Position numbers and translations under genes: made by a program | In this document: piece after piece, positions 4,969 to 18,816 of the stretch | How the letters are laid out: each line of letters begins with the position of its first letter | Numbering within the stretch: position 1 is the stretch's first letter | Notes under the pieces: generated by a model | Seen by the model: only the letters and a program-made list of their open reading frames with translations | Database searches by the model: none | Told to the model about the DNA's origin: nothing | DNA from: Flavobacterium degerlachei | Lineage (GTDB): Bacteria > Bacteroidota > Bacteroidia > Flavobacteriales > Flavobacteriaceae | Assembly: GCF_900106645.1 (NCBI RefSeq) | Contig: NZ_FNMV01000002.1 | Location: 248,001 to 312,000, forward strand | Direction: 5' to 3' | DNA: 64,000 bases

Positions 4969-5337
4969 ATGGTTGATATTAAAAAAATTGTTATCGCTGA
5001 AGACAATTCATTACTTTCTTCATTACTAAAGTTCCGATTAGAGAAAGAAGGATATAAACTGTTAGTTGCTGAGAATGGCAAAGATGCGATTGAATTGATA
5101 GAACAACATCAACCTGAGTTGATTTTGACTGATATTATGATGCCTTTCGTTAGCGGACTAGAAGTGATCAGTCATGTAAGAAATAAATTAAATATGCTAA
5201 CCCCAATAATAGTGTTTTCAGCAGCGGGACAAGAAGAAATAGTTTTAAAAGCTTTTAACTTAGGTGGTACTGATTTTATGAGTAAGCCAATTAGCCCGAA
5301 TGAATTAGTTATTAGAATAAAAAGACTGTTAAGATAA
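4969..5337 (+). CDS. Stand-alone receiver (CheY-like) response regulator, module 1
   Basis: The 122-residue protein is a single receiver domain with no output domain. Visible are the acidic pair (E11, D12), the phospho-acceptor Asp55 in ILTDIMMP, the Ser/Thr position in FSAAG, and the conserved Lys106 in SKPI. It is predicted to pass on phosphorylation from a histidine kinase by protein-protein contact. No kinase gene is adjacent. It opens a run of five same-strand genes (receiver, HEAT protein, GT2, LtaS-like, YaiO-like) with gaps of 30 bases or less, so it probably controls the polysaccharide machinery encoded downstream. A paralogue closes module 2 at 18454. Confidence 0.88.
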   Translation: MVDIKKIVIAEDNSLLSSLLKFRLEKEGYKLLVAENGKDAIELIEQHQPELILTDIMMPFVSGLEVISHVRNKLNMLTPIIVFSAAGQEEIVLKAFNLGGTDFMSKPISPNELVIRIKRLLR

Positions 5338-5367
5338 TATCTTAAATCGCGAGCTGAAATAAATTCC

Positions 5368-6471
5368 ATGAATAACAATCAATATTTTTTTGAATATCTG
5401 CAAAATTCTCCACCTATCATTGAATTGGTCTGGTTCATGATTGGCGTTTCTCTTTTGTCTATTTTAATTTTAATAATTTACTTAAAATATTTAAGAACAC
5501 ATTTGAGAAGCAATGAGAAAATACGGGAAACATATCAAATGAAGTATGAGTTACACCTCATAACCTATTTATATTCTGGAAATGAAGAAGAGACTATTAG
5601 CCCGGAACAACAAACCATAATCGATGAATTAAAAAAAGATCTATCAGATTCTTTTAAAAGAAGTATTGTAGTTGCAACTCTTCTCAAATTAAAAAACGAA
5701 ATATCTGGAGAACTGGACGAATCTATTCAAAAACTTTATTATCAAACAGGGCTTATAAATTTTTCTATCTCAAAACTGAGAAGTAGAAAATGGTACGTAG
5801 TTGCAAAGGGAGTTAGGGAGCTAACACAATTTCACATAAAAGAAGTTCACGATGAAGTAATAACCTTGATAAATCACCCAAAAAATGAGGTTCGAAAAGA
5901 AATGCAATTATATTTGGTGAATTTATTTAGTTTTAAAGGGCTTGATTTTTTAGATGTCTTACAAACACCCTTATCTGAGTGGGATCAAATTCAATTACTA
6001 GAGGTTTTGCAACGCTTTGACGATCAGCAAGTTTTCGATATCAAACCATGGTTGAAATCTTCGAACGACTCAGTAGTGACTTTCGCCTTAAAACTAGCTG
6101 ATATTTACATACAATTTCAAGCGAAAGAGGACCTTATTGAGCTATTAGATCACAAAAGCGAAAAAATAAGAATCGAATTAATTAATGTTTTGGGTAATTT
6201 AAATATTATAGAAGCTAAAACTATTTTAAAGAATCATTTTATCGAACGAAGTCAACAAGAACAAATTGCCTTTTTCAAAATGATGGAAAAAATGCCTGAA
6301 AGTGATGATGAATCTTTTTTGTTAGAATACATTCATCATGAAAATTTTGAAATTAAGTTGTCAGCCTTAAAGATTTTGAAAATGATTAACTCAAACACTT
6401 TCAATATTCAAAAGCACAAAGGAACAGAGCCCGATTTTGTGAAAATTGTTGAATATTTAGAAAATAACTAA
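5368..6471 (+). CDS. HEAT-repeat protein with N-terminal membrane anchor, module 1
   Basis: The 367-residue protein has one hydrophobic segment at about residues 17-40 followed by an all-helical cytoplasmic region. From about residue 130 the pattern of paired amphipathic helices fits HEAT or armadillo-type repeats (for example HDEVITLINHPKNEVRKEM and VVTFALKLADIYIQFQAKED). Such scaffolds bind partner proteins. The gene lies between a receiver and a GT2 synthase, with one base before the synthase start, so it may couple the receiver to the synthase. A paralogue of similar architecture heads module 2. No enzymatic motif, PilZ or GGDEF domain is visible. The coupling role is inference. Confidence 0.75.
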   Translation: MNNNQYFFEYLQNSPPIIELVWFMIGVSLLSILILIIYLKYLRTHLRSNEKIRETYQMKYELHLITYLYSGNEEETISPEQQTIIDELKKDLSDSFKRSIVVATLLKLKNEISGELDESIQKLYYQTGLINFSISKLRSRKWYVVAKGVRELTQFHIKEVHDEVITLINHPKNEVRKEMQLYLVNLFSFKGLDFLDVLQTPLSEWDQIQLLEVLQRFDDQQVFDIKPWLKSSNDSVVTFALKLADIYIQFQAKEDLIELLDHKSEKIRIELINVLGNLNIIEAKTILKNHFIERSQQEQIAFFKMMEKMPESDDESFLLEYIHHENFEIKLSALKILKMINSNTFNIQKHKGTEPDFVKIVEYLENN

Positions 6472-6472
6472 T

Positions 6473-7909
6473 ATGGAGATCAATACTATTTCAATTTTTC
6501 TTATAATTCGTTATCTATTTTTTGTTTATGCTATTACAACAATAGGATCGTACATTGTATTGGCTATAATTTCTGCAGTTGAAACTGTAGCCTACATGAA
6601 GAAAAATAGCTTCGTAAACTACAAAGAAATTTTATCATCTAATATTGCTCCTTCGATTTCGATTATAGCGCCAGCTTATAATGAAAGTTTGAATATTATT
6701 GAAAACGTACGCTCCTTACTATCCAATCATTATGTGAATTATGATGTAATAATAGTAAATGACGGAAGCAAAGATGACAGTCTAGAAAAACTAATCGTAG
6801 CATATGACTTAGTCAAAGTAGAGCATCTTATTAATCAACAAATTCCAACAAAACCGCTAAGAGAAGGGATTTTTAAATCTACTAATCCAGCATTTGAAAA
6901 ATTGATTGTTGTTGATAAAGAAAATGGCGGAAAGGCAGACGCATTGAACACTGGTCTAAATATTAGTCAAAACAAGTATGTTGCATGCATTGATGTAGAT
7001 TGTTTATTGCTTGAAGAAGCGCTTCAAAAAATGATTAAACCATTTTTAGAATCAACAGATACAAAAGTAATCGCCGCAGGTGGAGTTATAAGAATTGCTA
7101 ATTCATGCATCATCAGAGACGGAAAATTAATTGATGTCAATCTTCCGAAAAAAATGCTCGAAAAAGGCCAAATTCTAGAATATATACGTGCTTTTTTATT
7201 GGGGCGAATGGCATGGAGCAGGCTTAATGGCTTATTAGTTATATCGGGTGCCTTTGGTATGTTTGACAAAAAAATTGCGATAGAAGTTGGAGGCTACGAC
7301 ACAAAAACGGTTGGAGAGGACATGGAAATCATTGTTCGAATGAGAGGGTTTATGGAGGAACAAAAAGAAAAATACAAGGTAGCATATATCCCTGATCCCC
7401 TTTGTTGGACCGAAGCTCCTGATAATTATAAAATATTTATTTCCCAAAGAAACAGATGGACCCGCGGTACAATTGAAACACTTAGAAAACATCGAAAAAT
7501 TGGGTTTAACCCAAAGTACAACTCCATGGGACTTTTAAGCTACCCCTATTGGTTATTTTTCGAGAGGTTGGCCCCATTAATCGAAGTCCTTGGAATCCTG
7601 TATTTCGCGATACTCGTTGTCCTTGGTCAAGTGCGATGGGATTATACAGCTGCCTTTATTATTATGGCCTATTTGTTTACAGTTTTATTTTCTATTGTTG
7701 CCATTTTATCAGAAGAACTGACTTACCATCAATATAAAAAGAAAGGGATAGGGTATAATTTATTAAAAATTGCTTTCTTAGAGCCTTTTGCCATTCATCC
7801 CTTTATTGTCTATTCCGCTGTCGTAGGAAACATAGATTACTATTTCAACAAAAAGAAAAAATGGGGAGAGATGACACGAAAAGGAATGACAAATCCTGAA
7901 ACAATATAG
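6473..7909 (+). CDS. Membrane GT2 polysaccharide synthase, module 1
   Basis: This 478-residue enzyme is a processive-type family 2 glycosyltransferase of the PgaC/BcsA/NodC kind, expected to polymerise a nucleotide-sugar into a beta-linked chain while moving it across the inner membrane. Residues 8-40 form the first membrane helix or helices. The catalytic core shows NDG with Asp97, the DxD motif (Asp174, Asp176), GED (residues 281-283) for the general base, and Q325xxRW329. At least three membrane segments follow at about 355-460. No PilZ domain follows. It sits between the HEAT protein and the LtaS-like transferase. The sugar made is unknown; poly-GlcNAc-like or glucan products are possible by analogy. 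Confidence 0.85.
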   Translation: MEINTISIFLIIRYLFFVYAITTIGSYIVLAIISAVETVAYMKKNSFVNYKEILSSNIAPSISIIAPAYNESLNIIENVRSLLSNHYVNYDVIIVNDGSKDDSLEKLIVAYDLVKVEHLINQQIPTKPLREGIFKSTNPAFEKLIVVDKENGGKADALNTGLNISQNKYVACIDVDCLLLEEALQKMIKPFLESTDTKVIAAGGVIRIANSCIIRDGKLIDVNLPKKMLEKGQILEYIRAFLLGRMAWSRLNGLLVISGAFGMFDKKIAIEVGGYDTKTVGEDMEIIVRMRGFMEEQKEKYKVAYIPDPLCWTEAPDNYKIFISQRNRWTRGTIETLRKHRKIGFNPKYNSMGLLSYPYWLFFERLAPLIEVLGILYFAILVVLGQVRWDYTAAFIIMAYLFTVLFSIVAILSEELTYHQYKKKGIGYNLLKIAFLEPFAIHPFIVYSAVVGNIDYYFNKKKKWGEMTRKGMTNPETI

Positions 7910-7929
7910 ACAAAACCAATATCTATTCT

Positions 7930-10368
7930 ATGCCAATTAGATTTCCATTTACTACAACTTCAAATTATATTTATCTTACATTTTCGCTAATACTAACGTT
8001 TTGGCTGATTACCATATTTGAGATATATTCTATTATATCCAATGGAATAGAAATAGAAGTTGCAAGCACACTTATATTCAAATTAATCAATGATTTCTGG
8101 ACAGGAATAATTATTGGTCTACTACTTCTACCGTTATATTTGGCATTTATTTACATCAAAAAGCCATTTAATGATATTGCAATTAAAATACTGTTTTGTT
8201 TAATTGTAATTGGCCAATTCGCCTTGGTAAAATACAGTCTTACCACGCTTATAAATCTTGGAGCAGATATTCTTGGCTACTCTATGGGAGACATGTACAC
8301 AACCGTTACCGCTTCAGAATCATTGTCGTATTTTTATTTCTTTCCTTTTATTTTGTTTCCCATGGTATATTTGGGCATCAATTTAGGTGTAAATACTGTT
8401 TTAATCAACTATTCAAATCAATGGAAAACTTATATTATTTCTGGAATAGTAGTACTTACTTTAGTTAGTTTAAGGTTCATCATTCCTGAAGTAACAAATA
8501 CTCGATATCAAAATAAGTTATCCTTCTTTACAACTGACATCATCCGATTTCAGAATGATAAAAATTTAACTAATTCAGCAAATTTATTTTATAAAAAGGA
8601 GTATCCACTAGTCAAACCTTTCAAGTCATCTGACGATGTTTTGGCCCCTTTTTTTGAAATCCATGAGGAGAAGCCAAATATAGTGATGATCATCGTAGAA
8701 GGATTAGGAAGTGAATTCATAGGCAAAAATGATTTTAGAGGGTTTACACCTTACCTTGACTCCTTAATTCCAAAATCATTGTATTGGGAAAATTTTGTCA
8801 GTAATGCTGGTAGGACTTTTGGAGCTCTTCCTTCGTTAATAGGATCGTTACCCTATGGAGAAAAAGGTTTCTTGGAATTAAATCCATTGCCATCACATAT
8901 CTCTCTAATTAGTGTTTTAAAAGCCAATGAATATACTACTTCTTACTATAGCGGTGACGAATCCAGTTTTGACAGAAAAATTAATTTCTTAGAATACAAT
9001 GGAATAGATAATGTAATAGACATTAATAAATTTGGACCCGGTTATCAAAAAACAAAAGAAAACTCAGGCGGGTTTTCATGGGGCTACCCCGATGCTGAAA
9101 TTTTCAAAAAAACATTATCAGAAATTGCAGGTAAAAAAGGACCACGTTTAGATATCGTTATGACGCTTACTAATCACGAACCTTTTGATTTTCCATCTAA
9201 AAATGTGTATTTAAAAAAGGTAGACAGCATCAGCAATTCCAATAAAAGTATTGCAGTTTCAGCATCTGAAATAAAAGCGTATAAAGATATATTTGCCTGT
9301 TTGCTATATACAGACACTTCCATCAAAAATTTTATGGAGTCCTATGCTAAAAGGCCTGATTATAAAAACACAATTTTCATAATCACAGGGGATCACAGAC
9401 TAATTCCTATAACACAAAGAGACAAATTAAGTCGTTTTCATGTTCCCTTTTATATTTACAGTCCTATGTTGAAAAAAACGGAAACTTTTAAATCCGTTTC
9501 ATCACATTGGGATGTTACTCCAAGTTTACTTTCTTTCTTAATGAACAATTACAAGTTCAATAAGATGCAAAAAACAACATGGATGAGTCAAGGATTAGAC
9601 ACCACGAAACAATTTAGAAATGTACACCGTATCCCTTTAATGCGCTATAAGGGTAGCATTAACGATTATATTTATAAGGACTACCTATATTCTGATGGAG
9701 AGTTATTTAAAATAACCGAAAATTTCAAAACTAACAAAATCGAAGATCAGGCTGTTCTAAAAACAATTTCCGACTCTTTACAAGAGTTTAAGAGGTTAAA
9801 TGCCTACTTAACACAGAAAAACAAAATTATTCCAAATTCTTTAAATATATACACGCAACCCGCCTTTGAGTTTTCTACAAAAGAACTTGCCGTAATTAAA
9901 AAATTGACAAATGGATTGAATTTTGACCAGACATTCTTACTAGCAAGAGAACTTGCATTTAATAAAGAAAGAAAAAATGCAAGATTACTGTGTAATTATA
10001 TTTTAAATGAATTACCTAATTATGGTGATGTAAGAACTTTAAAAGCAAGAACACTAGCCTGGGATGGCGATTATAAAAATGCCGAAATCGAATTATTAAA
10101 TGTAATAAAAAGAACTCCTTTTTACAATGACAGTTACCTCGCTTTGATGGACGTATATTGGTGGTCAGGCCAAAATGAAAAAGGAATTGCAATCGCTAAA
10201 AAAGCGATAAAAAACGATGTTAAGACACCAGAACTGAGCCTTAAATTAGCTCAGGCTTATAAAAGAACAAACAACCTTGCGAAATCAAACAAAATCATAG
10301 ATAGCATTATTAAAATTTATCCTAAAAATGTTGATTTCTTAAATTTCAAAAAATCCTTAAAAGAATGA
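7930..10368 (+). CDS. LtaS-like phosphotransferase (sulfatase fold) with C-terminal TPR domain, module 1
   Basis: The 812-residue protein starts with about five membrane helices (residues 14-185), then an alkaline-phosphatase/sulfatase-fold domain like lipoteichoic acid synthase and phosphoglycerol or phosphoethanolamine transferases. Probable metal and catalytic residues are Glu257 (IIVEGLGSEF), the nucleophile Thr296 (AGRTFGALPS), His416 (TNHEPF) and Asp488-His489 (ITGDHR). The extracytoplasmic C-terminus from about 640 is a TPR array that resembles the N-terminal TPRs of the next gene product. The stop overlaps the next start (ATGA). It likely decorates the polymer with a phosphate-linked group, as BcsG does for cellulose; donor and acceptor are unknown. 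Module 2 lacks it. Confidence 0.78.
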   Translation: MPIRFPFTTTSNYIYLTFSLILTFWLITIFEIYSIISNGIEIEVASTLIFKLINDFWTGIIIGLLLLPLYLAFIYIKKPFNDIAIKILFCLIVIGQFALVKYSLTTLINLGADILGYSMGDMYTTVTASESLSYFYFFPFILFPMVYLGINLGVNTVLINYSNQWKTYIISGIVVLTLVSLRFIIPEVTNTRYQNKLSFFTTDIIRFQNDKNLTNSANLFYKKEYPLVKPFKSSDDVLAPFFEIHEEKPNIVMIIVEGLGSEFIGKNDFRGFTPYLDSLIPKSLYWENFVSNAGRTFGALPSLIGSLPYGEKGFLELNPLPSHISLISVLKANEYTTSYYSGDESSFDRKINFLEYNGIDNVIDINKFGPGYQKTKENSGGFSWGYPDAEIFKKTLSEIAGKKGPRLDIVMTLTNHEPFDFPSKNVYLKKVDSISNSNKSIAVSASEIKAYKDIFACLLYTDTSIKNFMESYAKRPDYKNTIFIITGDHRLIPITQRDKLSRFHVPFYIYSPMLKKTETFKSVSSHWDVTPSLLSFLMNNYKFNKMQKTTWMSQGLDTTKQFRNVHRIPLMRYKGSINDYIYKDYLYSDGELFKITENFKTNKIEDQAVLKTISDSLQEFKRLNAYLTQKNKIIPNSLNIYTQPAFEFSTKELAVIKKLTNGLNFDQTFLLARELAFNKERKNARLLCNYILNELPNYGDVRTLKARTLAWDGDYKNAEIELLNVIKRTPFYNDSYLALMDVYWWSGQNEKGIAIAKKAIKNDVKTPELSLKLAQAYKRTNNLAKSNKIIDSIIKIYPKNVDFLNFKKSLKE

Positions 10369-11630
10369 TTTCAAAAACAGTATTTAAATTCAGTTTAATA
10401 ATCACATTTGCATGCGTGATTCAAATATATGGTCAAAAAAGCGTCTATAACGGTAATCCTGACACTTCTTTTGAAACAGCTCGTCAGTTAGCATTTAACG
10501 AGCAAAGGAAACAAGCTCAAGATACTTTAGTATCCATTTTGACAAAATACCCTGACTATCATGATATTCGTTCTTTTTTAGCCTCTACCTATTCGTGGGA
10601 TAGTGAATACAAAGATGCAAGAAAAGAATTTGCGTATGTATTAGAGAAGGATCCACAAAATAAAAATACTTGGATTGCCGCAATAAAAAATGAAATTTGG
10701 GCAGAAAAACCATATAATGCTTTAGAGATAACAGCTGAAGCATTGAAAAAATTTCCAGATGATGCCGAAATATTATACTTAAAGGCCACAGCACAAGAAA
10801 ACACAAACAATCCTTTAGAAGCTTACAGTACAATACAAGCTATATTAGACAAAAACCCTGAAGACCAAAAAGCGAAAGACTATAAAGTTAATTTAAGTAC
10901 AACACTTCGAAATAATACAATTGGAATTACTACGGCCGTCGATTTGTACTCGGAAGTCTTTGATCCCATGCAATATTACACTTTGTCTTACGGCCGACAA
11001 ACAAAGTACGGAAGTATAATAGCGAAATTTAATTTTAACAGAAGGTTTAATGAAAATGGAACTCAAGTTGAATTAGATATGTATCCAAAAATTGCAAAAG
11101 GACTATATGCTTATCTGAACGTAGGAGTTGCCAATACTTTCCTTTTTCCCGATTTAAGATATGGTGCTGAATTGTATAAATCATTACCTAAAAGTTTTGA
11201 AGTTTCACTTGGATTCCGTTCTCTACAATACGACACTACAACTAACATTTATACGGGTTCGATAGGATGGTATACTGGAAACAGTTATTTATCTTTCCGC
11301 CCTTATTTTACTCCAAGTGACAATGGCACCAGTACTTCTGGAACTTTCACCTACAGAAAATACCGTAGTGATGCTGACAATTACCTAGGCTTTACTCTTG
11401 GTATGGGGTTTTCTCCAGAAATAAACCAATTTAATTTTAGCGAAAATCAAAGTGCAATTGTGGACCTAAAATCCCAAAAACTAAATATGGGCTACTACTT
11501 TACCTCGGCTAACAAAAAAAATGCGTGGGGAGCACAATTTGGAGTGACACATCAAGAAATTACTTTTGATCAAGGGAATTACTTTTGGATTTATAATCTT
11601 GCTTTGTCATGGGATATTCGTTTTAAATAA
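10365..11630 (+). CDS. YaiO-type outer-membrane beta-barrel with N-terminal TPRs, module 1
   Basis: The 421-residue protein has a signal peptide (about residues 1-23, ending IYGQ), three or four TPR-like helical repeats to about residue 180, and a C-terminal half of alternating Tyr/Phe-rich beta-strands (YYTLSYGRQTKYGS, AYLNVGVANTFLF, GNSYLSFRPYF) ending LALSWDIRFK with a terminal aromatic, as expected for an outer-membrane barrel. This layout fits the YaiO family, found beside GT2 genes in Escherichia coli (yaiP-yaiO). It probably guides or exports the polymer made by the upstream synthase. Translation is coupled to the LtaS-like gene by a 4-base overlap. Confidence 0.8.
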   Translation: MISKTVFKFSLIITFACVIQIYGQKSVYNGNPDTSFETARQLAFNEQRKQAQDTLVSILTKYPDYHDIRSFLASTYSWDSEYKDARKEFAYVLEKDPQNKNTWIAAIKNEIWAEKPYNALEITAEALKKFPDDAEILYLKATAQENTNNPLEAYSTIQAILDKNPEDQKAKDYKVNLSTTLRNNTIGITTAVDLYSEVFDPMQYYTLSYGRQTKYGSIIAKFNFNRRFNENGTQVELDMYPKIAKGLYAYLNVGVANTFLFPDLRYGAELYKSLPKSFEVSLGFRSLQYDTTTNIYTGSIGWYTGNSYLSFRPYFTPSDNGTSTSGTFTYRKYRSDADNYLGFTLGMGFSPEINQFNFSENQSAIVDLKSQKLNMGYYFTSANKKNAWGAQFGVTHQEITFDQGNYFWIYNLALSWDIRFK

Positions 11631-11677
11631 AAACACAGCGATTAAAAAAATATCGTGAAATAACGAATCTAATTTTA

Positions 11678-11775
11678 GGACCACTTTTGAGCAATTAAAC
11701 GATACTAAATTAGCATAAAAGCTATTGATTATTTAGAATTCACGCGGCTACTACCTATTAAAGAAAAAGCAAAAC
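11678..11775 (+). pseudogene. Decayed 5' fragment of a DEAD-box helicase gene
   Basis: Bases 11679-11696 are identical over 18 positions to 18921-18938, covering codons 2-7 of the intact helicase gene plus the last base of its ATG. Similarity then continues at about three quarters identity (31 of 41 positions by hand) and more loosely to about 11775. Here the ATG has become AGG, and in-frame stops and small indels are present, so nothing is translated. It marks a duplication or insertion boundary between the two polysaccharide modules. The alignment was made by eye. Confidence 0.72.
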
Positions 11776-12308
11776 ATAAGCATCGCTAAACTAGATCCGT
11801 ATTTACTTTAGAAGGACAATGCTACGCTAATAATGAGATCGTTTAGGGAATTAGGAAAAGTAATCCTGACGCTTCTTGAAACTCTTTTTTTTTTTAAAAT
11901 TTACTCTATAAAAGTAGTAAGCAAAAAAAATAATATCTAAAAAAAAATGATGCAAAAACACCAGATTAGTTGCATTTAAACTCCTGTGCTTTTTTGTTCA
12001 TAACATCCAAAATCTGATTTTTGCTTGTTTACTTTAGTTACTTATATAAGGGTTTTATAATATTTTAAAATAAAACCCAATTTCTAAATATTTTAATTAA
12101 TTTAGAAAACTAAGCGATAAATTGCCGTTTTCACCATGAAAAACATAAGCTAATTGCCTCAAATTTAAGATCATACATTACAATAGTTACGCTTTAACGA
12201 CTATTTAGGTTATTGATAGGAAAAAGAAATCATTGTATTAAAAATTACATAAATTTAATATAGCGCAAACTTTTACTTATCTTAATTTAAAGAAAAACCA
12301 GTCAATAA
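11776..12308 (+). other. Gene-free region between the two polysaccharide modules
   Basis: No convincing reading frame is present; stops occur densely in all frames. At 11860-11882 a 23-base stretch matches codons near the N-terminus of the module 1 YaiO-like gene (10453-10477) with one mismatch and a 2-base gap, possibly a second remnant. A run of eleven T residues follows near 11885. The final 50 bases are the leader of the module 2 HEAT gene and hold TTATCTTAATTT, also seen in the module 1 leader. No clear TAnnTTTG element is placed correctly. Confidence 0.5.
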
Positions 12309-13538
12309 ATGCTGATATTAAATACACTAAGCGATTTAAGCAACCTATGTACAAATGAATTATCTGTGCAATATGGTGACTCTGCTTTATCTTTTTTAAA
12401 GGATTTATTCACTAACACAAAAAATGGATTGTATAATTATTACAATTCTACAAATTCGACTGAAATCTTTTATGATGTATTACAATATATAATTATCCCT
12501 CTATTATTATTAATCGTTTCTATATTTATTTACTTATTAATAACGAAGCGATATCGTTATCAAAAAAGATCACTTTTACGTATTGAATTAGATATTACAT
12601 CAGATAATTTTCTTACAGAACTTATTTTTTCAAATTTTTCTAAAGCGGAAATTGATAGCAAAATTGAAGAATATAAAAAAACAGCGATTTTTAAAAAAAA
12701 ATGGTTTAAGAAAATAATTTTAAATAAAATCATTTCAATTAAACAAAACATCAATGAAGTTGATCCCAATTTTCTACTAAAAATATATAAAAGTTTTGGG
12801 TTTGATCGCTATAGTAAAAAATTGATCTTAAGCAGAAATTGGAAAAATAAATTAGTAGGATTAAACCATTACCAAATATTGGGGTATAAAATTAAGACAG
12901 GTTACATTAGACCCTATTTAAACAAACCAAAAAATAAATATCTTAATTCAAACGCTTTAATTGCAATGATTGTTTTATCAGATGAACATTTTGAATTAAT
13001 AGCTAATTATAAAAGAAAGATTTCAAAAGCAGATGAGCTTAAAATTCTAAATATTATATATAGTAAGAAGGCCAATCTGCCTAAAAATATTAGTACTTGG
13101 CTTTACTCTGAAAATTCAGCCATTGTGACACTTGCTATAAAGTTGATGGTTCGCTATAGAAAGGCTCTAACGTTAGATGAAATAAAGCAGCTGATGAATT
13201 ATGATTCGATTAAGGTCAAAAATGAAACTTTATTAGCTATTAGATTACTGTTCATATTTGAAGCAAATGATTACTTAATTGAATACTATGAAACGATAGA
13301 AAATATAGAAACTAAAATTTCTTGTTTAAAAACCTTTGCAGTTATTGGAGATGATTCATCTAAAAAATTTCTCACTAAATTCTTGGAACAAGATCATATA
13401 GATGTGAAATTTCAACTTATTAAAACAATAAACAAACTCGATTGTCATTATTTTGAGACCTATAAAACCAATAACGGCACTGAAGTAAGTATAGTAGAAA
13501 AAATTTTACTTCACGTTAATAATCCATATATAAATTGA
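12309..13538 (+). CDS. HEAT-repeat protein with N-terminal membrane anchor, module 2
   Basis: This 409-residue protein is a diverged paralogue of the HEAT protein of module 1. It has a longer N-terminal stretch before the membrane helix (about residues 58-79, YIIIPLLLLIVSIFIYLLI), then an all-helical region. The C-terminal half aligns by eye with its paralogue (SAIVTLAIKLMVRYRKAL with SVVTFALKLADIYIQFQA; FLTKFLEQDHIDVKFQLIKT with a similar block). No catalytic motif is visible. Its stop overlaps the start of the synthase gene by four bases. A scaffold or coupling role between receiver and synthase is inferred from context only. Confidence 0.72.
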   Translation: MLILNTLSDLSNLCTNELSVQYGDSALSFLKDLFTNTKNGLYNYYNSTNSTEIFYDVLQYIIIPLLLLIVSIFIYLLITKRYRYQKRSLLRIELDITSDNFLTELIFSNFSKAEIDSKIEEYKKTAIFKKKWFKKIILNKIISIKQNINEVDPNFLLKIYKSFGFDRYSKKLILSRNWKNKLVGLNHYQILGYKIKTGYIRPYLNKPKNKYLNSNALIAMIVLSDEHFELIANYKRKISKADELKILNIIYSKKANLPKNISTWLYSENSAIVTLAIKLMVRYRKALTLDEIKQLMNYDSIKVKNETLLAIRLLFIFEANDYLIEYYETIENIETKISCLKTFAVIGDDSSKKFLTKFLEQDHIDVKFQLIKTINKLDCHYFETYKTNNGTEVSIVEKILLHVNNPYIN

Positions 13539-14968
13539 ATACAATAGAAAAATTAATCAATGCTTTTGAGTCGTTTATTATATACTACTCTATAAGTTAT
13601 CTTTTATTATACTTGACCTTAGCAATACTTTCTTGGGTAGCAATAAAAAAATATTACGATATGAAATATTTTTTACCCAAAGATATATTAGTTAGGTCTA
13701 ACCATGCAGTGGGTGTTTCAATAGTAGCTCCGGCTTTTAATGAAGCAGTCACAATTGAGTATAATGTTAAATCACTTCTTTCTCAAGAATATCCCAAATT
13801 TGAGGTTGTAATTATTAATGACGGCAGCACAGATGAAACTCTTGAAATACTTATTAGCAGGTTTAACCTTGTGAAAGTGGACTTTTTTTATCAGGAAAAA
13901 ATTCCAACACAAAAAGTTATAGGTCATTACAAATCAACAAATCCAATATATTCTAAACTACTTGTTGTAGACAAGTTAAATGGAAAAAGTAAAGCCGATG
14001 GCTCCAATGCAGGAATAAATTCTGCAAAATACGATCTTTTCATATGTACTGATGTAGACTGCATATTAAGAAAAGATACTATCACAATGTTAGCTAAACC
14101 ATTTATAGAAAACACTAAAAAAGTAATTGCTACTGGTGCAGCAATTAGAATTTCAAATTCATGTGAATTTAAAGACGGAACCTTATATAAATCGCATTAC
14201 CCAAGCAATTTTTTTGCTGGCTTTCAAGAACTAGAATATATACGTGCTTATCTATTTGGAAGGATGGCTTGGACTAGTGTAAATGGATTATTGCTAGTTT
14301 CTGGTGGTCTTGGAATGTTTGATAAAGAGACAGCTATTGCGGCCGGCGGGTATTGGCATAAGTCTCTTGGAGAAGATATGGAACTTATTACTCGAATGAG
14401 AAAACTGATGCATGAGAAAAAAGAAGAATTTTTAATTATATATATACCAGAGTCATTATGTTGGACTGAAGTTCCAAGTACGTTAGAAATATTTTTAAGG
14501 CAGCGCGTAAGATGGGCAAGAGGATTGGTACAAACATTATATTTACATAAAAATGTTTTTTTAAATCCAAAGTATGGGAAAACAGGTTTTCTAATTTTCC
14601 CCTATTTTATCTTTTTTGAGTTTTTAGTACCAATCGTAGAGGTCATAGGCCTAGTATTATTAATAATAGATATCCTTTTCTTTGATATAAATCTATATTA
14701 CCTAATGATAGGGAGTAGTTTTGTATACTTATTTTATATTACAATCACGCTTATTTCTGTATATTTAGATCAAGTCATTTACAATCATTATACAGGTATG
14801 AAAGAAGTTCTACGACTCATTTTTATGATTTTTGTTGAACCTTTAGTATTTCATCCTATAAACGTATTCGCATCTATTATAGGATATTGGCATTTTTTTA
14901 GACAAATAGAACAAAAATGGGGAATACAAGTACGTCAAGGATTCCTAAAAGCAAAAATAGAAAAATGA
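13535..14968 (+). CDS. Membrane GT2 polysaccharide synthase, module 2
   Basis: This 477-residue paralogue of the module 1 synthase has the same layout: an N-terminal membrane helix (about 14-36), GT2 core with Asp96 (INDGSTDE), DxD at Asp173/Asp175, GED at 279-281 and Q323xxRW327, then membrane helices at about 350-460. It appears to start with TTG, overlapping the upstream stop as TTGA; the first in-frame ATG would remove the membrane helix, so TTG is preferred and translation is probably coupled. The enzyme is expected to polymerise and extrude a beta-linked glycan. Retention of all catalytic residues in both paralogues argues that both are active. Confidence 0.84.
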   Translation: MNTIEKLINAFESFIIYYSISYLLLYLTLAILSWVAIKKYYDMKYFLPKDILVRSNHAVGVSIVAPAFNEAVTIEYNVKSLLSQEYPKFEVVIINDGSTDETLEILISRFNLVKVDFFYQEKIPTQKVIGHYKSTNPIYSKLLVVDKLNGKSKADGSNAGINSAKYDLFICTDVDCILRKDTITMLAKPFIENTKKVIATGAAIRISNSCEFKDGTLYKSHYPSNFFAGFQELEYIRAYLFGRMAWTSVNGLLLVSGGLGMFDKETAIAAGGYWHKSLGEDMELITRMRKLMHEKKEEFLIIYIPESLCWTEVPSTLEIFLRQRVRWARGLVQTLYLHKNVFLNPKYGKTGFLIFPYFIFFEFLVPIVEVIGLVLLIIDILFFDINLYYLMIGSSFVYLFYITITLISVYLDQVIYNHYTGMKEVLRLIFMIFVEPLVFHPINVFASIIGYWHFFRQIEQKWGIQVRQGFLKAKIEK

Positions 14969-16215
14969 AAAAAACAGTCTTTATTACCTTATCGATAGTA
15001 CTTTTTATCGCTAATTTACAAGCTCAAAAAATTGACACTGATAGTTTACTAGTTAAAGCATATTACGAATTAAAAACTACAAAAAACTATACAAAAGCAA
15101 TTGAACTTGCTAAATTAGGAATCAAAACTGCACCAAGCTACGTCGATTTTAATGTAGTCTTAGGAAGAAGTTACATGCTCATAAAAAAAACCGATAGTTC
15201 AAGGGTTTATTTTAATCGTGCTATAAATCAAAATCCAAAATACAAAGAGGTCTTTTCATATTTAACAAAACTTGAAATCCAAGATAAAAATTTACCAAAT
15301 GCTAAGAGCTGTATCGATAAAGCACTTCATTTTTATCCAGACGATTTAGATTTTAACCTATTGAAATTAAATATTCTAGAGTTAGAAAATGACAAGAATA
15401 AAACAATTGAGTTTTTAGATTACTTGATTGTAAAATATCCGTCAAATTTAGATTTTAAACAGAAATTGACTCAGTTAAAGACTAAACTAGATTCAGACAG
15501 AATAGGTATAAATTACAGCTATACAACATTTAGCCGAAACGGTGTTGGTCCATGGCAGCTTTCTGGTTTACAATACATTAGAGAACGAGAAAAAATAACA
15601 TTAGTTGGTCGAATAAACTATGCTGACCGACAATCTTTTGGTACTAGTATCAGTTCTGGATTTCAATATGAATTTGAAACATACATTAAAAATAATTCAA
15701 AAAGTTATTCCTATCTAAGTTCTTCCTATAGTGATGCTATCGTTTTTCCAAAATTACGACTTGGGTATTCTTATTTTCATAACTTTAAAAAAGGTTGGGA
15801 AGGAGATATTGGAGTACGCTATACAAAAACAGTCGATGATAATTTATATGCAGGCGTATTTGGAGTTGGAAAATATGTTGGTTCCTATTGGATCAATTTT
15901 AAATCCTATTTACTTATAAATAAAAGTGAAATTAATCCTGCTTTTACTGCTACTGCAAGATATTATTTTGATACAAAATATGACTACGCGACAGTATTGA
16001 TTGGTTATGGATCATCGCCAGATGAAAGAGTTTCTTTGGTTGACATACAAAAAAGAATATCATTAAATTCCTATAGAATTGGCGCCGGTTATTATAAATC
16101 ATTTAATAATCATTATTTGACTGGAATTCAAACAATATTTAACAATCAAGAATATGTACAAAACAAAACACAAAATGAATTCGAAATAGCATTAATGTTC
16201 CAATACAAATTCTAA
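14965..16215 (+). CDS. YaiO-type outer-membrane beta-barrel with N-terminal TPRs, module 2
   Basis: The start is placed at 14965 (ATGA overlap with the synthase stop) because it gives a clean signal peptide, MKKTVFITLSIVLFIANLQA; the earlier in-frame ATG at 14917 would add 16 hydrophilic residues. The mature protein has TPR-like helices to about residue 180 (YVDFNVVLGRSYMLIKKTDS, NPKYKEVFSYLTKLEIQDK) and then a beta-strand-rich domain ending EIALMFQYKF with a C-terminal Phe. It parallels the YaiO-like protein of module 1 and probably forms the export or guidance barrel for the module 2 polymer. Confidence 0.8.
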   Translation: MKKTVFITLSIVLFIANLQAQKIDTDSLLVKAYYELKTTKNYTKAIELAKLGIKTAPSYVDFNVVLGRSYMLIKKTDSSRVYFNRAINQNPKYKEVFSYLTKLEIQDKNLPNAKSCIDKALHFYPDDLDFNLLKLNILELENDKNKTIEFLDYLIVKYPSNLDFKQKLTQLKTKLDSDRIGINYSYTTFSRNGVGPWQLSGLQYIREREKITLVGRINYADRQSFGTSISSGFQYEFETYIKNNSKSYSYLSSSYSDAIVFPKLRLGYSYFHNFKKGWEGDIGVRYTKTVDDNLYAGVFGVGKYVGSYWINFKSYLLINKSEINPAFTATARYYFDTKYDYATVLIGYGSSPDERVSLVDIQKRISLNSYRIGAGYYKSFNNHYLTGIQTIFNNQEYVQNKTQNEFEIALMFQYKF

Positions 16216-16216
16216 T

Positions 16217-18442
16217 ATGAATTATAAAAAACTGACATTAAACAACATAATGTTTCTATTCCTTGTTCTAAGCTTCAAAATGATGGCTCAATCTGATATT
16301 ATTATTAAAAATCAAACAGCAAACGACAATGTAATAAGTATTGCGTCTGAGAGTGAAAGACCAGCAGCAATGTTACTAAAATCATATTTGGATAAATCTT
16401 TTACGAATTTATTTTTAATCCAAAATGAAAAAAAACAACTTGAAAAAAACGCTACAATTTATCTCAGCATATCAAAATTAAAAACAGATAATAGTTTTGT
16501 AATTAAGAGTGATGAAAAAGATATTTTTTTAATTGCACCCAACATTAAGTTGTTACGCTATGCCGTTTATACTTTATTAGAATCTTGGGGATATAGAAAA
16601 TTCACAGCAAAAGAAACTTATATCCCAAAACTAGATAAAATTACATTTCCGAAAAATACAGAACAATATTATAAACCTTCTTTTGAATATCGAGTATTAC
16701 TATATCCAGATGCGTATGATGAAGATTTTAGAGACTGGCATAAACTCGATTGGCATTTAAATGATTTTAATGTTTGGGGCCACTCCTTTGGTAAACTTTT
16801 ACCACCTAAAGAACACTTCAAAACAAATCCATCTTTCTTTGCACTTTATGAAGGATATCGCAATGACGAATCTCTTTGTATGACTAATGATACTGTAGTT
16901 GATATTGTTATAAAAAACATGCAGAAAGTAATCTCACAAAATCCAAATGCTCAATTCTATTCTGTAAGTCAAAATGATGATGTTGTATATTGTGAATGTC
17001 AAAAATGTAGCTCAATAAATAATAAATATGGAGGTCCGCAAGGTTCGTTATATTATTTTTTAAATAAAATAGCTAAACATTTTCCTAAAACAAAAATAGT
17101 AACGCTAGCTTATCTACATACATTTAAACCACCAAAAAGATTAAAACTGCAATCAAATTTATACACCTTAATTTGCCCTATTGAACTAAATCGAGGAATT
17201 GCTATAGAAAACGACAATACCAGTAAGTCTTTTAGAAAAACACTAGAAGACTGGAACAAAACCTCATCGCATTTATATTTATGGGATTATACAGTTCAGT
17301 TTTCCAATTATTTATCCCCTTTTCCTAATATCCATACGTTCTCTGACAACTATAAATTTTTTAAAAATAATAACATAAAAGGCCTATTCGTTCAGGGATA
17401 TGCAGATATACCAGGAGATTTCACAGAATTAAGACAATATCTTTTGGCCAAATTATTATGGAATTCCGATATTGATATCAATGCCGTTACAGATGATTTT
17501 CTAAGAGGTTTTTACGGTAATGCAGCTCCATATATTAAAAAGTATTTAAATCTTTTAACCGAAAATCAACAAAAATCAAATTCCTTTCTTGATATTTATT
17601 CTGGTCCTGTTCAAAGTAGAAATACCTTTTTATCTCCAGAAGCAATGGATCAATATGATATTTTAATAAATGAAGCTGAACTTGCGGTGCTTCAAGACTC
17701 GACATTAGAACCAAGAGTCCAAAAATTGCGATTAGCATTAGAATATGTCTTTTTTGAGCAATCAAAATTTTATGGTAAAGATCAACATGGTATGTTTACC
17801 ATTAATGAAAATGGAGAAAAATCGATAAGAAAAGGACTAACTGAAAGAGTCTTGAATTTTACAAAAAGATGTTCTGAACTAGGAATCTATGAATTAAGTG
17901 AAGCTGGCTTGTCTCCAGAAGAATATTACGAAGATTGGCTCGAAATAACTAACAACTCAAGCCCTCATTTAGGTGAAAATCTAAAAGTTGATTTTATCAC
18001 CACACCCGCTGAAGAATTTACTGGTAAAGGAACCTATGGATTAGTTGATGGAGCTAGAGGCTATAAAGATTATAATATCAACTGGATTGGATGGTATGGA
18101 ACTAATCCTGAGATAGAATTACTAACAAACAAGTTGAATTTCAACCGCATAAAAATAAATTTTTTAGACGATCAAAGACATTGGATCTTCCTTCCAAAAA
18201 AAATCTCTATCTACGGTTTTAACAATAATGAATGGTCCTTAATTACAGAAGAACTTACTGAAGATTTAACACAAAATACTGATATAAAAATAAATAGCAT
18301 AGTACTTAATCATAAAAACTTCACTAAATTTAATAAACTAAAAATCATAATTGAGAATCAAGATGATTTGCCAATTTGGAGAAAACGAAAACAAAAAAAA
18401 CCAATGGTCATGATTGATGAAATTGAGCTCTATAAAATATAG
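16217..18442 (+). CDS. Secreted DUF4838 glycosidase-like protein
   Basis: The 741-residue protein has an N-terminal signal peptide (about 1-24, ending MMAQ). The region from about 35 to 140 resembles the small domain that precedes alpha-glucuronidase-type barrels, and about 150-480 fits DUF4838, including the Cys cluster CECQKCSS, the ICPIELNRG strand and the HLYLWDYTVQFSNYL and GLFVQGY blocks. A C-terminal domain (about 580-741) looks beta-rich, like a sugar-binding module. It starts one base after the YaiO-like stop. Synthase-dependent export systems usually carry a periplasmic glycosidase or deacetylase, and this is the obvious candidate here. Substrate and activity are not known. Confidence 0.72.
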   Translation: MNYKKLTLNNIMFLFLVLSFKMMAQSDIIIKNQTANDNVISIASESERPAAMLLKSYLDKSFTNLFLIQNEKKQLEKNATIYLSISKLKTDNSFVIKSDEKDIFLIAPNIKLLRYAVYTLLESWGYRKFTAKETYIPKLDKITFPKNTEQYYKPSFEYRVLLYPDAYDEDFRDWHKLDWHLNDFNVWGHSFGKLLPPKEHFKTNPSFFALYEGYRNDESLCMTNDTVVDIVIKNMQKVISQNPNAQFYSVSQNDDVVYCECQKCSSINNKYGGPQGSLYYFLNKIAKHFPKTKIVTLAYLHTFKPPKRLKLQSNLYTLICPIELNRGIAIENDNTSKSFRKTLEDWNKTSSHLYLWDYTVQFSNYLSPFPNIHTFSDNYKFFKNNNIKGLFVQGYADIPGDFTELRQYLLAKLLWNSDIDINAVTDDFLRGFYGNAAPYIKKYLNLLTENQQKSNSFLDIYSGPVQSRNTFLSPEAMDQYDILINEAELAVLQDSTLEPRVQKLRLALEYVFFEQSKFYGKDQHGMFTINENGEKSIRKGLTERVLNFTKRCSELGIYELSEAGLSPEEYYEDWLEITNNSSPHLGENLKVDFITTPAEEFTGKGTYGLVDGARGYKDYNINWIGWYGTNPEIELLTNKLNFNRIKINFLDDQRHWIFLPKKISIYGFNNNEWSLITEELTEDLTQNTDIKINSIVLNHKNFTKFNKLKIIIENQDDLPIWRKRKQKKPMVMIDEIELYKI

Positions 18443-18453
18443 AAAACACTAAA

Positions 18454-18816
18454 ATGAAAAAGAAAATATTAATTATTGAAGATGATCCACTTATAATAAA
18501 AATTTTAGTTTTTATTTTAAAAAAAGAAGGGTACGAAACGTTCGTAGCGACAGAAGGTACTGATGGTATTGATCAAATAGGAAAACTCAACCCTGACCTA
18601 ATAATCACAGATATCATGATGCCTTATAAATCGGGACTTGAAATCACATCATTTTCTAAAAAAAACTACCCTAAAATTCCTTTGATAATTGTATCGTCAC
18701 TTGGAACAGAAGATCACACAGTTATAGAAGGTTTTAAGCTTGGTGCAGATGATTTTATTGCTAAACCATTTAACCCTATAGAATTAACTTTAAGAGTGAA
18801 GCGCTTTTTACTATAA
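18454..18816 (+). CDS. Stand-alone receiver (CheY-like) response regulator, module 2
   Basis: The 120-residue protein is a lone receiver domain: acidic residues E9, D10 and D11, phospho-acceptor Asp53 in IITDIMMP, Ser81/Ser82 in VSSLG and Lys104 in AKPF. It has no output domain and ends in LRVKRFLL, closely like the module 1 receiver (IRIKRLLR). It is 12 bases after the DUF4838 gene and is the last gene of the module. As with its paralogue, no kinase lies beside it; the nearest hybrid kinase in the window is far away at its right edge. It probably signals by contact with a partner such as the HEAT protein. Confidence 0.87.
   Translation: MKKKILIIEDDPLIIKILVFILKKEGYETFVATEGTDGIDQIGKLNPDLIITDIMMPYKSGLEITSFSKKNYPKIPLIIVSSLGTEDHTVIEGFKLGADDFIAKPFNPIELTLRVKRFLL

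Follow-up and report, generated by a model that had tools for sequence, protein, structure and literature searches.

Twin receiver-HEAT-GT2-YaiO modules of Flavobacterium degerlachei, candidate operons for synthase-dependent polysaccharide secretion

Two adjacent gene modules of Flavobacterium degerlachei share a stand-alone receiver, a membrane-anchored HEAT protein, a GT2 synthase and a TPR-YaiO outer-membrane barrel, and their HEAT-GT2 pair is conserved within Bacteroidota and in other phyla. The preferred reading, to which a probability of about 0.58 is assigned, is that these modules encode synthase-dependent secretion of a polysaccharide, each as an operon whose GT2 synthase is gated by a phospho-receiver via the membrane-anchored HEAT adaptor.

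Architecture of the two modules

In the window, which is the whole stretch of 64,000 nucleotides that was analysed, ten open reading frames (ORFs) lie on the + strand between positions 4969 and 18816, and an ORF check of the window found no internal stops in them. The first five form module 1 and the last five module 2, with a gap of 678 bases in between:

4969..5337, + strand: RR1, stand-alone receiver of 122 aa with no output domain (PF00072, 93.9 bits; D55, K106)
5368..6471, + strand: HEAT1, membrane-anchored HEAT-repeat protein with one N-terminal TM helix (HEAT_2, 34.4 bits)
6473..7909, + strand: GT1, GT2 synthase with about five hydrophobic segments (PF00535/PF13641)
7930..10368, + strand: LtaS/MdoB-superfamily transferase (PF00884, 93.6 bits)
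10365..11630, + strand: YaiO1, TPR and YaiO outer-membrane barrel (PF19413, 224 bits; TIGR04390, 199 bits)
12309..13538, + strand: HEAT2, HEAT-type protein with one TM helix (homology to HEAT1, 2e-22)
13535..14968, + strand: module 2 GT2 synthase (PF13641, 65.6 bits; 41% identity to GT1)
14917..16215, + strand: YaiO2, TPR and YaiO barrel (PF19413, 150 bits; TIGR04390, 92 bits)
16217..18442, + strand: DUF4838 protein, with a predicted glycoside-hydrolase-like TIM barrel and a C-terminal F5/8-like domain
18454..18816, + strand: RR2, stand-alone receiver of 120 aa (PF00072, 92.9 bits; 45% identity to RR1)

The sequence-only reading had proposed two adjacent same-strand modules with four shared components and with the receivers at opposite ends, first in module 1 and last in module 2. 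The ten intact ORFs, their Pfam matches and the paralogy of the shared parts (45% identity between the receivers, 41% between the GT2s and 25% between the YaiO proteins) bear out this arrangement, and the gene order agrees with it. To this common core, module 1 adds the LtaS-like transferase and module 2 the DUF4838 protein. GT1 starts 1 base past the stop of HEAT1 and the GT2 gene of module 2 overlaps HEAT2 by 4 bases, which suggests translational coupling of the HEAT and GT2 genes. As a promoter cue, the Bacteroidota -7 motif TANNTTTG was uninformative (111 matches against 107 expected), and sigma-70 and terminator scans stayed at chance level.

RR1 and RR2 match PF00072 alone. Of the HEAT proteins, HEAT1 exceeds the HEAT_2 cut-off of 27.7 bits, while HEAT2, at 12.0 bits, has no Pfam match above cut-off and is classed as a HEAT protein because it is homologous to HEAT1, with which it aligns over 370 residues at 20% identity. 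Their hydrophobic segments span residues 20-38 in HEAT1 and 61-79 in HEAT2. The AlphaFold model of HEAT1 (pLDDT 92.2) predicts an all-helical solenoid with a continuous helix at residues 16-70.

Both synthases have GT2-family Pfam matches, and the motifs NDGS, DxD, GED and QxxRW are invariant in an alignment of 21 GT2 sequences including both of the window, so that the claim of intact catalytic motifs holds. The closest NCBIfam family to both is PgaC/IcaA (TIGR03937), at 132.1 and 124.8 bits against a cut-off of 422.3, and the BcsA/CelA family (TIGR03030) gives 40.5 and 30.8 bits against 699.1. The module GT2s constitute a discrete group, as all 183 sequences that score above 100 bits on the GT2 profile reach at least 455. 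A PDB search with the GT2 alignment returned four GT2 matches, the best over a short stretch.

The protein at 7930-10368 consists of about six hydrophobic segments, a catalytic domain and a C-terminal TPR region, with Pfam matches to the Sulfatase/LtaS superfamily and to TPR; the TPR tail shares about 30% identity with the TPR region of YaiO1. It carries the LtaS-type catalytic set (E257, T296, H416, D488, H489) and, together with its PF00884 match, this upholds the earlier description of an LtaS-like transferase, of the LtaS/MdoB group (COG1368). For the phosphoglycerol transferase I equivalog (NF009027) it scores 30.7 bits against a cut-off of 572. The DUF4838 protein, described earlier as glycosidase-like, matches PF16126 with 318 bits (cut-off 26.6), and alignment of its model with VIA-align, in whose list the absence of a family carries no information, predicts a glycosidase fold that is hexosaminidase-like.

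Both YaiO proteins pass the TIGR04390 cut-off of 32. In YaiO2, a signal-peptide-like MKK... at 14965 overlaps the GT2 stop, and this position, judged from the sequence, is probably its start instead of 14917. In the PgaA-family porin model (TIGR03939, cut-off 366.7), YaiO1 scores 37.7 bits and YaiO2 is not among the matches; a PDB search with YaiO1 retrieved matches to the TPR region only (best E 0.0045). The YaiO barrel models cover about 170-240 residues, and an excerpt of PMC9601211 gives 16 to 18 strands for the barrels of known synthase-dependent exporters. Export through YaiO is weakened as a proposal because this length is short for such a barrel. TPR-barrel proteins of 937-1013 aa occur in 15 relatives.

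Conservation and co-inheritance of the core

The possibility that the association is not conserved outside the source genome, raised with the original proposal, was searched at three taxonomic levels and the association was found to be strongly conserved instead: a GT2 gene directly follows the HEAT gene in all 40 family neighbourhoods and in 61 of 62 strong matches of the phylum, and of the 23 loci tested outside Bacteroidota, 22 encode a HEAT_2 domain just before the GT2 (Pfam; one below the curated cut-off). Chance adjacency of HEAT and GT2 genes, estimated at one to two percent from the 24 loci of the F. degerlachei genome that match the broad GT2 family among about 3,400 genes, is rejected by the phylum-wide count.

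At the family level, 149 genomes searched with HEAT1 gave 46 matches in 41 genomes. Six of the matches were left out: the two of the window, another fragment of a gene already represented, and three that are weak (E of 1.9e-8, 1.1e-6 and 9.7e-4). In the 40 remaining neighbourhoods the GT2 is of the module type, and there is a receiver within five genes in 36, a YaiO within seven in 36 and an LtaS-like gene within seven in 30. For the phylum, a profile from 30 HEAT proteins was run over 395 genomes, several of them shared with the family sample; 92 match at 1e-4, and all 62 matches at E 1e-17 or better, found in 53 of the 395 genomes, were examined. The distance between HEAT and GT2 genes is within 20 bases or negative by overlap in 58 of these 62, and the exception without an adjacent GT2 is a HEAT gene (L209) among short ORFs. 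Counted per HEAT gene, so that in twin modules (those of the window and L159) a part of the neighbouring module may be included, YaiO is encoded within seven genes in 51, an LtaS-like protein in 29 and a DUF4838 protein in 13. A lone receiver gene is directly upstream in 29 of the 62 and within five genes in 48, which leaves 33 where it is not directly upstream and 14 with none within five genes. The suggested genome search for co-occurrence of the four families therefore finds GT2, YaiO and the receiver at 61, 51 and 48 of the 62 HEAT loci. Among the weaker matches, eight were picked by hand because the match was N-terminal and the protein roughly as long as expected, and the GT2 follows the HEAT gene in all eight; many of the other weaker matches resemble other HEAT proteins.

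Outside Bacteroidota, a GT2 profile scan of a contig collection of 84,980 species yielded at least 587 stretches; relatives are encoded in 401 of them, from which the 80 best loci were taken. The non-Bacteroidota loci include Paenibacillus, Neobacillus, Brevibacillus, Saccharibacillus, Clostridium, Stutzerimonas, Lysobacter, Mesorhizobium, Parvibaculum, Bdellovibrio, Geobacter, Myxococcota, Terriglobia, Gemmatimonadetes, Elusimicrobia, Neomarinimicrobiota and others, several of them represented by MAGs. The 23 tested do not comprise L158, L113 (labelled Beijerinckiaceae, with Chitinophaga-like gene order) and L141 (Balneolaceae, grouped with Bacteroidota), and their sole miss, L151, has two overlapping 345 aa frames before the GT2, one of which was scanned. 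In 15 of the 23, a receiver domain is encoded no more than five genes away, often inside a longer protein.

The receivers themselves are conserved as phospho-acceptors: among the 126 that score above 85 on the receiver profile, the Asp is kept in 124 and the Lys in all. They also appear to travel with their partners, since the nearest neighbours of a module by receiver or by HEAT protein (k=8) belong to the same GT2 cluster in 114 and 115 of 120 modules, respectively (chance 0.32). Tree distances over the 120 modules correlate between GT2 and HEAT (Spearman 0.75), HEAT and receiver (0.70) and GT2 and receiver (0.55), an agreement that partly reflects species descent. In genomes with two modules, the HEAT protein is closer to its own GT2 than to the swapped one in 4/4 pairs, and the receiver fits its own GT2 better in 3/4; in the fourth pair one receiver had been assigned to both modules, which makes it a tie.

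Known systems and a candidate receiver-HEAT switch

The well-studied synthase-dependent exopolysaccharide systems, those for cellulose, PNAG, Pel and alginate, are switched by c-di-GMP, and the synthase is opened by PgaD plus c-di-GMP in the case of PNAG or by a PilZ domain in the case of cellulose. No GGDEF match was found in the F. degerlachei genome, nor in 47 of the 53 Bacteroidota genomes that match the module strongly; the six with GGDEF matches all belong to classes other than that of the window. Control by c-di-GMP in F. degerlachei is thus improbable, and binding of c-di-GMP as at PgaC-PgaD is unlikely in these modules for the same reason. In GGDEF-bearing relatives c-di-GMP keeps a possible part, because GGDEF occurs in 6 of the 53 genomes and two Pfam-scanned clusters, one from Paenibacillus and one from Stutzerimonas, encode Hpt-REC-GGDEF proteins; phosphorelay and c-di-GMP signals may meet in these two. 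At the level of sequence comparison, conservation and the missing GGDEF match support the earlier idea of a distinct synthase-dependent system with receiver and HEAT proteins where c-di-GMP sensors stand in the known ones.

The modules resemble the PNAG operon pgaABCD in having a membrane GT2 with few TM segments, a TPR and outer-membrane barrel protein and a glycosidase-fold protein, but they differ from it in the presence of receiver and HEAT proteins, in the score of GT1 (132 against 422 bits) and in that the Pfam matches listed for the ten proteins at E up to 0.1 include no PgaB-type polysaccharide deacetylase, no PgaD and no PilZ domain. Membership of PNAG systems was rejected on the PgaC, PgaA and deacetylase comparisons. 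With cellulose and phosphoethanolamine cellulose, the latter made by bcs systems with BcsG, they share a GT2 with D, DxD, GED and QxxRW and a membrane-bound enzyme of the alkaline phosphatase superfamily that possibly adds a phospho-group to the chain; they differ in lacking a PilZ match, in the CelA score (40 against 699 bits) and in a transferase that matches LtaS-type structures. Membership of bcs systems was rejected on the CelA score and the unmatched PilZ. The E. coli yaiP-yaiX-yaiO-yaiS cluster likewise combines a GT2 and a YaiO barrel, whereas YaiP is 22% identical over about 300 residues and scores 33.9 bits with the module GT profile, where members reach at least 455, YaiO (257 aa) has no room for a TPR part and no receiver or HEAT gene is annotated in the yai cluster. 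The E. coli YaiOP type was therefore rejected, the barrel agreeing and the GT2 not. In the literature, PgaB carries a glycoside hydrolase domain (PMC5933820); the clostridial ccsZABHI is a synthase operon with its own hydrolase and with components that mostly have no relation to those of Gram-negative systems, but its CcsA has a PilZ domain and the main text makes no mention of a receiver, response regulator, GGDEF or HEAT protein (PMC7710045); and the Xanthomonas xagABCD is an operon with a putative glycosyltransferase and a biofilm role besides pga and gum (PMC3609779). The accessible portions of the literature on xagABCD, ccsZABHI and EmbRS do not describe a HEAT-GT2 pair. Among the open-access literature matches listed, as far as their text was available, there is no receiver-HEAT pair described as a synthase regulator and no published characterisation of the same cluster, which the earlier reading had named as a possible objection; within those matches, synthase-dependent export is already known and regulation by a receiver and a HEAT protein is new.

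For the gating of the synthase we infer the following course, and the inference extends to all interactions, to the direction of switching, to the nature of the polymer and to its export via YaiO. A hybrid kinase or Hpt phosphorelay would phosphorylate the receiver, and the phospho-receiver would bind or leave the HEAT solenoid. The HEAT protein, whose long N-terminal helix would place it next to the GT2, would then allosterically open the synthase, taking the place of PgaD plus c-di-GMP or of the PilZ domain. The GT2 would polymerise a nucleotide sugar and the chain would pass through the inner membrane. In module 1, the LtaS-like enzyme might modify the emerging chain with phosphoglycerol or phosphoethanolamine, and the TPR-YaiO protein would carry it across the periplasm and the outer membrane; in module 2, the DUF4838 protein might trim it. 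Against this course speak the 14 of the 62 strong phylum-wide loci with no lone receiver within five genes and the absence of a kinase gene beside the two modules of the window; in its favour, a hybrid kinase is encoded up to six genes away in 27 of the 62. Two of these neighbouring kinases were scanned and show a HisKA-HATPase-REC architecture and an Hpt that is marginal at 23.2 and 24.5 bits (cut-off 24.6), followed in one case by a separate Hpt protein (29 bits).

An unlikely though credible alternative is that receiver and HEAT protein serve to position the synthase, for instance at a cell pole or a site of adhesion, or to assemble it, and do not gate its catalysis, the polysaccharide still being exported. 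HEAT solenoids are commonly protein-binding scaffolds, the solved structures closest to the HEAT1 model are designed alpha-solenoid binders and importins (with modest TM-scores of about 0.2-0.6), and 19 family relatives have long acidic, scaffold-like HEAT extensions. However, the near-invariable HEAT-GT2 adjacency with its overlapping gene ends and the conserved phospho-switch suit a stoichiometric regulator at least as well.

It is a good deal less probable that the product of module 1 is teichoic-acid-like or a glycolipid, with the GT2 making a glycolipid anchor and the LtaS-like enzyme polymerising or attaching glycerol phosphate. This would agree with the matches of the transferase to LtaS (PDB 4uoo) and its relative 3lxq, with the catalytic residues in place, and with the fusion of GT2 to an LtaS-like enzyme, seen in 12 of the 62 strong phylum-wide loci. 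Yet the enzyme is missing nearby in 33 of the 62 and is not encoded by module 2, it is catalytically broken in 16 of 72 aligned LtaS-like sequences while the operon persists, the GT2 retains the QxxRW motif of processive synthases, and a TPR-barrel protein is nearby in 51 of 62. The absence near 33 loci and the loss of catalytic residues in 16 sequences also indicate that modification is not a core step. That the modules are divergent PNAG or cellulose operons under c-di-GMP control from elsewhere in the genome is very improbable: PgaC/IcaA is the closest named family of both GT2s, the YaiO/TPR shape recalls PgaA, all the more in the 15 relatives with long TPR-barrel proteins, and the predicted DUF4838 fold is hexosaminidase-like, but the scores lie far below the curated PgaC and CelA cut-offs, and deacetylase, PgaD and PilZ are unmatched in the ten proteins, as is GGDEF in the genome.

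Gating by a phospho-receiver could be extended, tentatively and with the odds somewhat against it, to a widespread second switch of a post-translational kind, in which a phosphorelay acts without c-di-GMP and a lone phospho-receiver opens the GT2 via a HEAT protein whose TM helix lies beside the synthase. If true, it would explain the control of exopolysaccharides in Bacteroidota without GGDEF proteins, and would either be older than the divergence of Bacteroidota and the other phyla or have been passed between them. The REC-HEAT-GT2 core, with its 53 genomes in the phylum sample, is a concrete candidate for the control of secreted glycans in the 47 that are devoid of GGDEF matches, and the DUF4838 and YaiO families would gain a likely role.

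Module variants and accessory genes

Ten same-genus or named Flavobacterium loci have their modules beside the same ABC ATPase gene as the window, and the shared flank mostly also includes a TIGR02757-like gene and a DEAD-box helicase gene where the fetched stretch extends far enough. The content of this variable site, with module types assigned by best match to the proteins of the window, differs among loci. Both modules are present in L159; module 2 occurs with DUF4838 in L171, L172 and L174 and without it in L127 and L116; L079, from Flavobacterium salmonis, has module 1 and a split DUF4838 frame; and L071, L163 and L166 have a chimera of a HEAT2-type protein, a GT2-type synthase fused to an LtaS-like enzyme and a YaiO1-type protein, accompanied by DUF4838 in L071 and L163. 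Such mixes and chimeras at one site imply that parts have been exchanged between modules there. In L079, the DUF4838 gene is split into frames of 106 and 630 aa (ORF 14536-16425 and the preceding 106 aa ORF), possibly by a frameshift.

The catalytic set of the LtaS-like enzymes (E, T/S, H, D, H) is kept in 56 of the 72 aligned sequences, window included, and in full in all 17 GT2-LtaS-like fusions found. The 16 proteins without it, apparently from one Flavobacteriaceae lineage (L049, L051, L054, L058-L062, L065, L066, L099, L100, L109 and L160-L162), are on sequence grounds likely pseudoenzymes with a structural role, and several of their loci also have long HEAT proteins. The long form is represented by 19 HEAT proteins of 625-998 aa from family relatives (L049-L067), with an acidic extension (20-28% D+E against 6-11% K+R) after the HEAT1-like part. 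No fusion of HEAT to receiver or to GT2 is present among the ORFs of the loci examined, which counts against the proposed receiver-HEAT and HEAT-GT2 contacts.

Chitinophaga-type clusters (L112, L113, L114, L119, L157) have one HEAT gene followed by two tandem GT2 genes, and encode a TPR-YaiO protein of 955-1006 aa except in L114, where the contig ends. Proteins with an apparent TM helix at the N-terminus, most of them about 390 aa long, form a family that recurs next to the REC-HEAT-GT2 clusters of Bacteroidota, Paenibacillus, Saccharibacillus and Myxococcota (L199:3804-4991, L070, L085, L088, L120, L132, L137, L148, L150, L173, L177, L178, L180, L195, L198, L208 and L210); the two members scanned have no Pfam match. 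In the Bacillota clusters L139 and L147, the GT2 is followed by a protein with a receiver domain and by one of 454 aa; the N-terminal sequence of the latter in L139 looks by eye like a nucleotide-sugar dehydrogenase, a hint of a uronic-acid substrate in these clusters.
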